A DNA stretch of 64,000 nucleotides from Jatrophihabitans cynanchi (lineage in GTDB: Bacteria; Actinomycetota; Actinomycetes; Mycobacteriales; Jatrophihabitantaceae): positions 1,798,001-1,862,000 of the forward strand of contig NZ_CP097463.1 of assembly GCF_027247405.1 (NCBI RefSeq), written 5' to 3'. Position 1 is the first letter of the stretch, and the number at the start of each line of letters is the position of its first letter. Positions 29,413-32,522 of this stretch are shown here, piece after piece. The position numbers and the translations under genes are program-made. The notes below the pieces were generated by a model. That model saw nothing but the letters and a program-made list of their open reading frames with translations. It did not search any database and was not told the origin of the DNA.

Positions 29413-30527
29413 CGGTACTGGCAGGTGCTCGGGTAGTGACCCCGGACGGCGTGCTCGAACCGGGTTGGGTGTCGATCGACGGCGGCCGGATCGCCGCGGT
29501 CGGAGCCGGCGCGGGGCCGCCGGGAGCCGAACCCGTCTCCGGCTGGCTGCTGCCCGGCTTCATCGACCTGCACGTCCACGGCGGCGGCGGTCACGACTTC
29601 ACCTCCTCGCCGGCAGACATGGCCGCCGGTGTCGAGTTCCACCGCCGGCACGGCACCACCCGCGCGCTCGTGTCGCTGATGGCGGGCGGGATCGACGCGA
29701 TGTGCACGCAGCTGGGCTGGGCCGCCGAACTGGCCGGGTCCGGCGCGATCCTCGGCGCCCACCTCGAAGGCCCGTTCCTGGCGTCGGCTCGCTGCGGCGC
29801 GCAGAACAAGGCACATCTGCTGGCTCCGGACCCGCTGGTGCTCGCCAAGCTGCTCGACGCCGGCCAGGGCACCGTGCGCACCGTGACGATCGCGCCGGAG
29901 GTACCCGGCGCGATCGGCGTGGTCGAGGCGATCGTCGCGGCCGGTGCTGTCGCGGCGGTCGGGCACACCGATGCCACCTACGAGCAGGCGAGCGCGGCGT
30001 TCGCGGCCGGCGCGTCCCTCGCCACCCACCTGTTCAACGCGATGGGTTCGATGAGCCAGCGCGCGCCCGGACCGGCCGTGGCCGCGCTCGACGCCGGCGT
30101 GTACGTCGAGCTGATCAATGACGGCGTGCACGTGCACGAGGCCCTGGTCCGGTTGGCCGCCCGCGTCGCCCCCTCGCGGCTGGCCCTGATCACCGACGCG
30201 ATCAGCGCGACCGGCGTGGGCGACGGGCACTACACGTTGGGCGACCAGGCCGTCGTGGTCGAGTCCGGCAGGGCGAGGCTGGCCGGCGACGACCGGCTGC
30301 GGCTGGCGGGCAGCACGCTGACCATGGACGTGGCGGTGCGGCGCGCGGTGCAGTCGGTCGGGCTGTCGATCGAGGCCGCCGTCGCCGCTGCGTCGACCAA
30401 CCCGGCGCGGCTGCTCGGGCTGTCCGGCGTGTGCGGAGCGATCGCCCCGGGTCTGGCCGCCGACCTGGTGCTGATGGACGACGACCTTCAGGTGCAGCAG
30501 GTGATGAGGGCCGGCGCCTGGCTCTGA
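29409..30527 (+). CDS. nagA: N-acetylglucosamine-6-phosphate deacetylase
   Basis: A 372-residue amidohydrolase converting GlcNAc-6-phosphate to glucosamine-6-phosphate and acetate. Metal and catalytic residues are in place: His55 and His57 of LHVHGGG, Glu120 of AHLEGPF, His186 of GHTDATY, His207 of THLFNAM and the catalytic Asp263 of ITDAISATG. Its start overlaps the kinase stop (ATGA). It is the last gene of the plus-strand amino-sugar cluster and feeds the SIS deaminase encoded upstream. Confidence 0.95.
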   Translation: MTVLAGARVVTPDGVLEPGWVSIDGGRIAAVGAGAGPPGAEPVSGWLLPGFIDLHVHGGGGHDFTSSPADMAAGVEFHRRHGTTRALVSLMAGGIDAMCTQLGWAAELAGSGAILGAHLEGPFLASARCGAQNKAHLLAPDPLVLAKLLDAGQGTVRTVTIAPEVPGAIGVVEAIVAAGAVAAVGHTDATYEQASAAFAAGASLATHLFNAMGSMSQRAPGPAVAALDAGVYVELINDGVHVHEALVRLAARVAPSRLALITDAISATGVGDGHYTLGDQAVVVESGRARLAGDDRLRLAGSTLTMDVAVRRAVQSVGLSIEAAVAAASTNPARLLGLSGVCGAIAPGLAADLVLMDDDLQVQQVMRAGAWL

Positions 30528-30535
30528 CCCCAGAC

Positions 30536-30620
30536 CTTCTCCGTTGAGTGGCGGGTTACGCGTTCAGTGGCGGGCTACAAGCCGCCACTGAACCGGAAAG
30601 CCGCCACTCAACGGGAGCAG
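30536..30620. repeat. 85-bp palindromic element, copy 1
   Basis: Nested inverted repeats: outer arms CCGTTGAGTGGCGG (30541-30554) and its complement (30601-30614), inner arms GTTCAGTGGCGG (30562-30573) and its complement (30582-30593), with an 8-nt loop. The two left arms are near-copies of each other. It matches 31585-31669 at 82 of 85 positions in the same orientation. It begins 9 bp after nagA. Confidence 0.93.
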
Positions 30621-30707
30621 CGGGGGGGGTGTGGACAAGCTGGTCCTCGTCCACAGACGGGGGCTGACCGGTCGCGTCGGGTGGGCTTGTTGCGCACACT
30701 GCCGGAC

Positions 30708-31541
30708 ATGGCTGAGCTGATTCGCGTCACCCGGGGGGTATGGAGACGTGCGGACGAGGTCTGCGATCTCGCCGCGCGATGCGCCGCCATCCTGAGCGCA
30801 TGTCCGGACGGCAGCGTCGTGGCCGGGCGGGCCGCCGCACAACTGCACGCCCTCTGGCTCCCTCCAGGCGCTGCCGGCACCGTCGATGTCGTGCTTCGAC
30901 GCGACGCGGTAGTCCCGCGCGCCCACTCGCACAGCATGCGCGGCGAACTGCGCAGCCGCCGCCGCACGCTGCACCCGGACGAGATCGTGCTTGTCCAGGG
31001 CGTGCCGGTGACCAGTGCGGCGCGTACCTGGCTCGACCTTTCCGAGTCTCTGGCGATGCCCGACCTGGTGGCGCTGGGCGACAGTGTCCTGCGCGGAGGC
31101 GATACCGCGCCGGCCGAGCTCGCCGGCGTCGTGTCCCGGGGATACCACCGCCGGGGCGTCGTTCGGGCACGTCAGGCATTGCCGCTGCTGAACGCGCGCT
31201 CGCGGTCCCGTCCGGAGAGTCACTTCAGGTATGCCCTTGTCAGCGCAGGACTCCCGACGCCGGACGTCAACCTGCCGATCTACAACGAGCTTGGCGAGTG
31301 GCTCGCCGAACCTGACCTGAGCTATCCGGACGCGATGTTGGCGCTGGAGTACAACGGCGCCGAGCACGCCGAGGCGACCCGGATGCGACGCGACTACACC
31401 CGCACGTTCGACGTGCAGTACCGAGGCGGCTGGCGCGTGGAGACGTTCGGACCGGCCGAGATCTTCGGGCGACCGGATCAGACGGCACAGTTCGTCAAGG
31501 AGCTGCGGCGCGAACGGCTCAGCCGCCGCCGCATCGCCTGA
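30708..31541 (+). CDS. DUF559-type protein (AbiEi-like N-terminus, nuclease-like C-terminus)
   Basis: A 277-residue protein of a type common and unnamed in actinobacteria. The N-terminal half resembles AbiEi/AbiEi_4 antitoxin-like regions. The C-terminal part (about 165-270) resembles the DUF559/Vsr PD-(D/E)XK fold, with EPDLSYPDAMLALEYNG near 200-216 supplying the acidic pair. The expected lysine is replaced by Tyr-Asn-Gly context, as is usual in DUF559. Function unknown; cleavage activity is not shown. The ATG at 30708 is preferred. A 7-bp inverted repeat (TGTGGAC/GTCCACA, 30630-30655) lies upstream. The gene is alone and bracketed by 85-bp palindromic elements. Confidence 0.72.
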   Translation: MAELIRVTRGVWRRADEVCDLAARCAAILSACPDGSVVAGRAAAQLHALWLPPGAAGTVDVVLRRDAVVPRAHSHSMRGELRSRRRTLHPDEIVLVQGVPVTSAARTWLDLSESLAMPDLVALGDSVLRGGDTAPAELAGVVSRGYHRRGVVRARQALPLLNARSRSRPESHFRYALVSAGLPTPDVNLPIYNELGEWLAEPDLSYPDAMLALEYNGAEHAEATRMRRDYTRTFDVQYRGGWRVETFGPAEIFGRPDQTAQFVKELRRERLSRRRIA

Positions 31542-31584
31542 CTGGTGCGGTACAACGGGGCGCGCCAGGACGCACCGAGCCGCC

Positions 31585-31669
31585 CTTCTCCGTTGAGTGG
31601 CGGGTTACGCGTTCAGTGGCGGGCTACAAGCCGCCACCGAACCGGGAAACCGCCACTCAACGGGAGCAG
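31585..31669. repeat. 85-bp palindromic element, copy 2
   Basis: 82 of 85 bases match copy 1 at 30536-30620, in direct orientation about 1.05 kb away. The outer arms are intact; one change (CCACCGAAC) introduces a mismatch in the inner stem. It ends 13 bp from the map stop codon. Confidence 0.93.
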
Positions 31670-31682
31670 CCACGGGACGGGC

Positions 31683-32522
31683 TCAGGCCGCGTACGCGCT
31701 GAGCTCGATGCCGCGCTCGGCCAGGGCGGCGCGGCCACCGTCCTCGGCGGTCAGCACCCACGGGCCGTCCTGCAGGATGGCCACCGTGTGCTCCCAGTGC
31801 GCCGCCCATGAGCCATCGGCCGTCGACACCGTCCAGCCGTCGTCCAGCTCCTGCGTCGCCCGCGAGCCGAGCGTGATCATCGGCTCGATCGCGAGCGTCA
31901 TGCCCGGCGTTAGCCGCGGGCCCTTGCCGGCCCGGCCGTGGTTCAGGATGTGCGGCGCCATGTGCATGGCCGTGCCGATGCCGTGGCCGCCGTAGCCGGT
32001 GACGATGCCGTAGCGGCCGGAGGCCCGGACCGAACTCTCCACCGCGTGCGAGATGTCGGTCAGCCGGCCACCGGACCGCGCCGCCGCCAGGCCGTCCCAC
32101 AACGAGCGCTCACACGCCTCGGACAACGCCCGCGCCTCGTCGGAAACCTCGCCCACGCAGACCGTGATGGCCGCATCGCCGTGCCAGCCCTCGACGATCG
32201 CGCCGAAGTCGATCGAGACGAGGTCGCCGTCGGCCAGCTTCTCCGCCGCGGACGGGATGCCGTGCACGACCCGGTCGTTCACCGATGCGCAGATGACCGC
32301 GGGATACGGCCCGTTGCCGATGTCGTAGTGCAGGAAGGACGACGTCGCGCCGGCCTCGCGCAGCACGTCGCGGGCGATCGAGTCCAGGTCGGCGGTCGAC
32401 ACGCCGGGGGCGGCCGCGTCGTGCATCGCCGTCAGCGCGCGCGCCACCACCAGGCCCGCTCGGCGCATCAGCGCGATCTGGTCCAGGTCCTTGATCTCGA
32501 TGCGCTCGGGGAACGTCCGCAT
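31683..32522 (-). CDS. map: Methionine aminopeptidase type I
   Basis: A 279-residue enzyme that removes the initiator methionine from nascent proteins. The pita-bread metal ligands appear in order: two aspartates in [18 protein letters not shown], His in GYGGHGIG, Glu in AIEPMI and Glu in WEHTVAI. ATG 32522 lies 4 bp after the adk stop; upstream in-frame codons lie inside adk. It closes the secY-adk-map unit. Its normal downstream neighbour infA has been separated from it by 11.9 kb. Confidence 0.96.

Follow-up and report, generated by a model that had tools for sequence, protein, structure and literature searches.

The closest described counterparts of the locus reported here are the RAYT genes. 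According to excerpts of one study (PMC2817692), these are single genes bracketed by palindromic REPs, which are dispersed over extragenic sites and are particular to each gene; REPs measure 20–40 bp according to a further study (PMC3733652). A second point of comparison is the AbiE type IV toxin–antitoxin system, in which proteins of the AbiEi family attach to DNA at two or four inverted repeats of 23 bp, as stated in the excerpted text of PMC7319586.

We analyzed a window of 64,000 nt from the genome of Jatrophihabitans cynanchi (NZ_CP097463.1, positions 1,798,001–1,862,000), in which a gene is flanked by two copies of a long palindrome. The arrangement resembles that of RAYT genes in this flanking, which is also found around many homologues, and in the dispersal of the repeats over the genome, mostly at sites spanned by no ORF. 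It differs in the orientation of the pair (the REPs around RAYT genes are inverted, whereas the pair in the window is direct and both orientations occur in the family), in the length of the palindromes, which are about 72–74 bp long and contain several repeats of one site, and in the protein, which has an AbiEi-like and a DUF559/PD-(D/E)XK-like part. With AbiEi and Rv2827c the protein shares N-terminal similarity and, if it binds its palindrome, a target composed of repeated inverted sites, four in this case. However, its C-terminal half is nuclease-like, the sites flank the gene at either end and are dispersed over the genome, and no AbiEii (DUF1814) toxin gene was found beside it. Members of the family also match the DUF559/Vsr-like (PF04480) and MTES_1575 (PF18741) endonucleases and share a conserved E, D, E with them. 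In open-licence PubMed Central, preprints excluded, we found no paper in which palindromes, whether flanking or dispersed, are linked with DUF559, MTES_1575 or AbiEi proteins.

Structure of the locus

The two elements are 87 bp long and agree at 84 of 87 positions, or at 82 of 85 when delimited as in an earlier note on this DNA, which had rightly described them as near-identical and direct. Compared as a direct pair they show 97% identity and compared as an inverted pair 80% complementarity. Each copy is itself a palindrome with 33-bp arms (88% and 85% complementary) around a centre of 8 nt, and the two-tier architecture described before is clearly recognizable in both: every copy carries four GTT(G/C)AGTGGCGG sites, two in each orientation (Table 1). 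Allowing at most one mismatch, the 12-mer of the arms occurs nine times in the window compared to 1.36 expected occurrences, a number reached in none of 100 shuffles, and eight of the nine occurrences are the palindrome arms themselves.

Table 1. Positions of the palindrome copies, their arms and the bracketed gene in the window
Feature	Position	Strand	Remarks
Upstream repeat copy	30535..30621	+	Palindrome proper 30541-30614; 7 bp after nagA; 1 of 24 genomic copies
Arm 1, upstream copy	30543..30554	+	GTTGAGTGGCGG
Arm 2, upstream copy	30562..30573	+	GTTCAGTGGCGG
Arm 3, upstream copy	30582..30593	-	Inverted
Arm 4, upstream copy	30601..30612	-	Inverted
Bracketed gene, 277-aa protein	30708..31541	+	AbiEi-like N-terminal part; DUF559/MTES_1575-like PD-(D/E)XK part with E170, D203, E214
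Downstream repeat copy	31584..31670	+	Palindrome proper 31590-31663; 42 bp after gene; 12 bp from map
Arm 1, downstream copy	31592..31603	+	
Arm 2, downstream copy	31611..31622	+	
Arm 3, downstream copy	31631..31642	-	One mismatch
Arm 4, downstream copy	31650..31661	-	

The pair sits in the intergenic gaps between two convergent neighbours. The ORF before the upstream copy ends at 30527 and the minus-strand ORF after the downstream copy has its stop end at 31683, so that the distances given previously for the 85-bp elements, 9 bp after nagA and 13 bp before map, hold. The two gene names fit as well: the adjacent ORFs match the Pfam families Amidohydro_1 (along with Amidohydro_3) and Peptidase_M24, respectively, and no others. 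Readings for Rfam RNAs and promoters found nothing at the locus.

The start of the bracketed gene is best read at 30708, in a reading frame that is open from 30567. Its protein gave no Pfam match at E ≤ 1 and nothing in NCBIfam, so that Pfam does not directly support the label DUF559 of the earlier note for the window protein itself; among 26 aligned family members 15 match DUF559 (PF04480) and 13 match REase_MTES_1575 (PF18741). The Pfam models AbiEi_4 and AbiEi_1 are each matched by 3 of the 26 members and not by the window protein, in which PADLOC AbiEi models match stretches within residues 3–165 (best E 2.8e-8, residues 33–165). When the profile of the 26 members was compared with the PDB, we obtained 3hrl (endonuclease-like) with an E of 4.4e-7 in the C-terminal part, and in the nuclease part a weak match (E 0.0089) to 3r3p, a 'mobile intron protein' that we take to be a homing endonuclease. 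This weak match and a cassette at a site that is empty elsewhere (see below) recall the Vsr-like homing endonucleases; the cassette here differs from them in being intergenic, with neither an intron nor a host coding sequence around it. Of 76 homologues, 75 have the presumed catalytic residue E170, all 76 have D203 and 74 have E214; these three are also present in the window protein, whose residue 216 is N, compared to D in 62 of the 76 homologues. From these similarities we read the protein as a predicted AbiEi-like DNA-binding part fused to a DUF559-type PD-(D/E)XK nuclease. A structure model computed from the sequence of the window protein alone was uninformative (mean pLDDT 35.7).

Dispersed copies in the genome

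A comparison of the 87-mer with its own 4.5-Mb genome gave 52 rows; after merging the two strands and dropping four matches (E above 1, 14–19 bp) these correspond to 24 places. The element is thus dispersed in many copies, an outcome that the earlier note had named as support for its view, and a restriction to the window locus is excluded. All 24 copies follow the two-tier plan, with arms that are invariant or nearly so and with variable spacers. In the hairpin covariation of the 24 copies a single pair of arm columns (24/49) shows clear variation at both positions, and 18 of the copies keep it paired; we claim no selection at the level of structure, because the arms are too invariant for covariation to tell.

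A distance of 1,049 bp separates the two copies in the window, whereas no other neighbours lie closer together than 13.7 kb, which makes the window gene the only closely bracketed gene in its genome. The cores of the two window copies agree at 69 of 72 positions and those of the next best pairs at hardly fewer, 68 of 72, so that the window copies need not be a recent duplication; a few further bases beyond the core are also shared by them. According to rough gene calls, 18 of the 22 copies outside the window are spanned by no ORF (at 7 of these 18 an ORF touches an edge); in two copies (L039 and L042) only the 5' end of an ORF call covers the element, and two others (L040 and L045) lie inside the 3' end of an ORF. 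Within 12 nt of the copies the left flanks are rich in pyrimidines (mean 0.74) and the right flanks are rich in purines (mean 0.76). No target-site duplication was detected at any of the 24 copies (k from 3 to 9, offset at most 3), which rules against a MITE of a DDE transposon. Two more homologues of the gene in this genome (L034 and L035) have a downstream palindrome that occurs at four and three places, respectively (E below 0.01); by the flank-repeat score both genes are unbracketed.

Bracketing of homologues in other genomes

A protein-similarity search found homologues in 29 of 41 genomes, the window's own included. In this first set, taken from the order of the window, we observed a pair of near-identical repeats, one on each side of the gene, in 47 of 79 homologues with usable flanks (46 of 78 when the window gene is left out). 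The 79 remained from 92 loci after ten that were not re-found by tblastn and three in which a flank was shorter than 60 bp had been set aside; one of the ten (L088) does have flanking palindromes, and six listed homologue places were left out of the locus set. For evaluation we determined how often controls reach the bracketing score, which was the case in 9 of 1,912 cross-locus comparisons, 8 of 1,405 random window positions, 0 of 20 nagA loci and 3 of 101 other ORFs of the window's genome. The ORFs of the last control come from the window together with 25 loci of ten kb, of which 22 were chosen around the element; a codon-position filter kept the window gene and its closest paralogue in the genome out of it, and all three of its positives lie in one locus (L049). 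Long repeats surround three ORFs in this 10-kb locus (L049:555-8348), perhaps as an insertion element or a duplication. The map gene was not found in the 1.5-kb flanks of the 19 other nagA loci.

In a second, phylum-wide set obtained with a profile 14 of 30 homologues are bracketed (13 of 29 without the window gene) compared to 0 of 758 in the control, and outside the order of the window the fraction is 11 of 26. One homologue of the genome G029 counts as unbracketed in this set (L213) and as bracketed in the first (L099), its gene end being probably misplaced in the second. By flank comparison, bracketing repeats were not detected in 32 of 79 and 16 of 30 homologues of the two sets. A profile search of the phylum found the protein family in 61 of 149 sampled genomes, again including the window's own; at least ten matches per genome were counted in G029, G048, G065, G072, G113, G120, G131, G135, G160, G179 and G181.

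Regarding orientation, the better reading is direct in 26 of the 47 bracketed loci of the first set and inverted in 21. The downstream copy begins 0–73 bp past the stop codon in 34 of 35 displayed loci. At several loci (L143, L089 and L129) the arms agree between the two copies and the loops differ, and at some others (L100, L216, L229 and L241) the gene lies between tandem arrays or plain repeats instead of single palindromes. In a relative with an incomplete genome (G016), only a distant homologue of the window gene was found; weakly similar elements (71–73%) occur there at L061–L063, one of them near a nagA gene.

Repeat families of individual genes

In order to see how far the repeats are shared between genomes, 13 gene-flanking repeats were compared with eight genomes. 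We obtained 448 matches, and the best 150 of them all lie in the repeat's own genome. Among these matches listed, the repeat of G026 occurs at no fewer than 40 places and that of G003 at no fewer than 24; the genome G010 harbours three families with at least 9, 13 and 3 places, and a separate gene of the nuclease family belongs to each of them. Such counts are lower bounds, as the best 150 of 448 matches include 2 of 35 for G014 and 2 of 24 for G000, the genome of the window. The repeats of L033, L101, L099, L143, L086 and L112 are found, among the matches listed, at their own gene or at one to four places. When 7 of the 13 repeats were compared with four genomes from which they do not originate, a single match appeared, 75% identical, between the G003 repeat and the window's genome; it lies at G000:C1:2868367-2868450, outside the 24 copies described above. 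Over 60 loci, repeat similarity and protein similarity are weakly linked (Mantel test, Spearman 0.149, reached in 0 of 1000 permutations), and this link may reflect shared ancestry.

Presence and absence between congeners

One of the G010 genes offers a comparison between related genomes. Its cassette of palindrome, gene and palindrome measures 1.2 kb and lies downstream of a gene whose C-terminus resembles citramalate synthase, a name that we assigned ourselves. The citramalate-synthase-like gene is present in eight congeners, and the cassette is missing in all five of those in which both flanks could be aligned; in the remaining three (L195, L197 and L198) the right side did not align and they were left out of the comparison. 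A finder for short-loop palindromes detected both palindromes in G010 and none in the five congener gaps. Thus relatives lacking the cassette, which the earlier note had named as one possible support, do exist at this homologous site, but they retain neither of its palindromes, so that a single element left behind, the other half of that expectation, was not seen. In two of the gaps we recognized by eye a different inverted repeat with a longer loop, of the GAGTTACGCGTAAC type (L193:1732-2280 and L194:1732-2180), which is doubled in L193.

The three repeat families of G010 gave no match in any of the eight congeners, and the same pieces do match G010. Five of the congeners have no homologue of the gene at E ≤ 1e-5 and three have distant ones only. 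Repeats and genes therefore come together. We consider a gain of the cassette by G010 the likelier history, as compared with many losses. A corresponding empty-site comparison at a solo palindrome of G010 gave no result, as the right flank is unaligned in the congeners; to the right of this palindrome (L174) lies another tandem array with units of about 30 bp.

A probable unit of nuclease gene and palindromes

Taken together, we consider it probable that the gene and the palindromes form one unit which works like REP/RAYT on the basis of an unrelated nuclease. The AbiEi-like N-terminal part would probably bind the arm sequence, of which each palindrome offers four GTTSAGTGGCG sites, two facing two. 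A palindrome built from four repeated sites fits the binding of AbiEi-family proteins to two or four inverted repeats mentioned above, and the conserved nuclease residues suggest that bound DNA may be cut. The C-terminal DUF559-type part would then probably nick or cut at or near the palindrome, or at a hairpin that it might form, and repair of the break would copy palindromes, and occasionally the whole palindrome–gene–palindrome cassette, into new intergenic places. The transposition would thus be the work of the protein itself. What we observed is the bracketing, the dispersed copies, a repeat family particular to each gene, the conserved nuclease residues and a homologous cassette that differs between congeners; binding, cutting and a causal role of the protein in the spread are inferences from these. 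Against this view stand the homologues without bracketing repeats, the mixed orientation of the pairs, the brackets in array or plain form, the families with few places among the matches listed and the lack of target-site duplications.

RAYT genes are REP-flanked too, yet Y1_Tnp (PF01797) was found in none of the five genomes with these repeats that we searched (the control was positive in 5 of 14 known genomes), for which reason we favour a nuclease-driven, REP-like unit. A RAYT identity is ruled out by this result and by the missing Pfam match of the window protein. The earlier idea of a palindrome-bounded cassette in a REP/RAYT-like relation is partly supported and extends to many homologues, each of them paired with a different repeat; the action of the protein on the palindromes, which belongs to that idea, is probable. 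More tentatively, and with somewhat less than even confidence, we suggest a new class of mobile elements that is common in the phylum: an AbiEi–DUF559 nuclease would recognize its own arms and spread both a minimal palindrome and the cassette without a known transposase, probably through cutting of palindromic or hairpin DNA followed by repair copying, and several independent gene–palindrome pairs may share a genome. If this is true, gene–repeat partnerships arose more than once, with RAYTs and with an unrelated nuclease family, and many unannotated palindromic repeats as well as solitary AbiEi/DUF559-like genes in these genomes would be accounted for. The gene–palindrome pairs represent directly testable protein–DNA pairs with many natural variants.

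Several other explanations have to be weighed. The protein could chiefly be a DNA-binding regulator, with the palindromes as operators that serve autoregulation at the gene and act elsewhere as regulon or nucleoid-organising sites, their copies being spread by ordinary recombination. AbiEi and Rv2827c indeed autoregulate via two or four inverted repeats, as far as the excerpted text of PMC7319586 goes, and conservation is far higher in the arms than in the spacers, which is what binding sites should show. However, a second copy just downstream of the stop codon in nearly all displayed loci, nuclease residues that are kept in 74–76 of 76 homologues and a cassette that is present or absent as a block between G010 and its congeners make this explanation unlikely. 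We regard it as quite unlikely, moreover, that the palindromes are spread by another transposase, or by replication or repair at hairpins, and that the gene is a passenger which tolerates them. Bacterial palindromic repeats can be mobilised in trans (compare PMC2817692), and several repeat families occupy few places among the matches listed, which speaks for this reading. What speaks against it is the confinement of the best 150 of 448 matches to the repeat's own genome, with one weak match when repeats were compared with other genomes, the three different families of G010 with a nuclease-family gene each, the absence of Y1_Tnp from all five genomes searched and the lack of the target-site duplications that most DDE transposases leave.

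Because PADLOC AbiEi models match the N-terminal part with E values down to 2.8e-8, a solitary AbiEi/DUF559-type defence nuclease was considered as well, which the palindromes would check, load or address and for which the dispersed copies would serve as self marks or decoys. Both adjacent genes, an amidohydrolase and an M24 peptidase, are no defence partners, and the copy numbers differ widely between families among the matches listed, so that we hold this reading to be improbable. Least credible, and in our view scarcely to be expected, is that the palindromes merely insulate a horizontally acquired gene or terminate transcription in both directions around it. Long G+C-rich intergenic hairpins between convergent neighbours would suit such a function, but terminators would be neither near-identical on both sides nor particular to a gene, and a search for intrinsic terminators (a stem–loop followed by a T run) found 0 sites in 30400–31800.

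Array forms of the repeats

A scan of viral sequences found no relative. The family of L100 in G010 (G010:C1:2917149-2917330 and 1889013-1889134) consists of tandem arrays with units of about 32 bp, in opposite orientation to the left and to the right of the gene. A scan of contigs for the element, in which the query was approximate as its spacer was set to 8 and that of the window is 7, returned one Agrococcus contig with tandem arrays. At L031:3100-3400 this contig carries 20-bp units with (G/C)AGTGGCG followed by inverted units, that is, the same arm in the form of an array.
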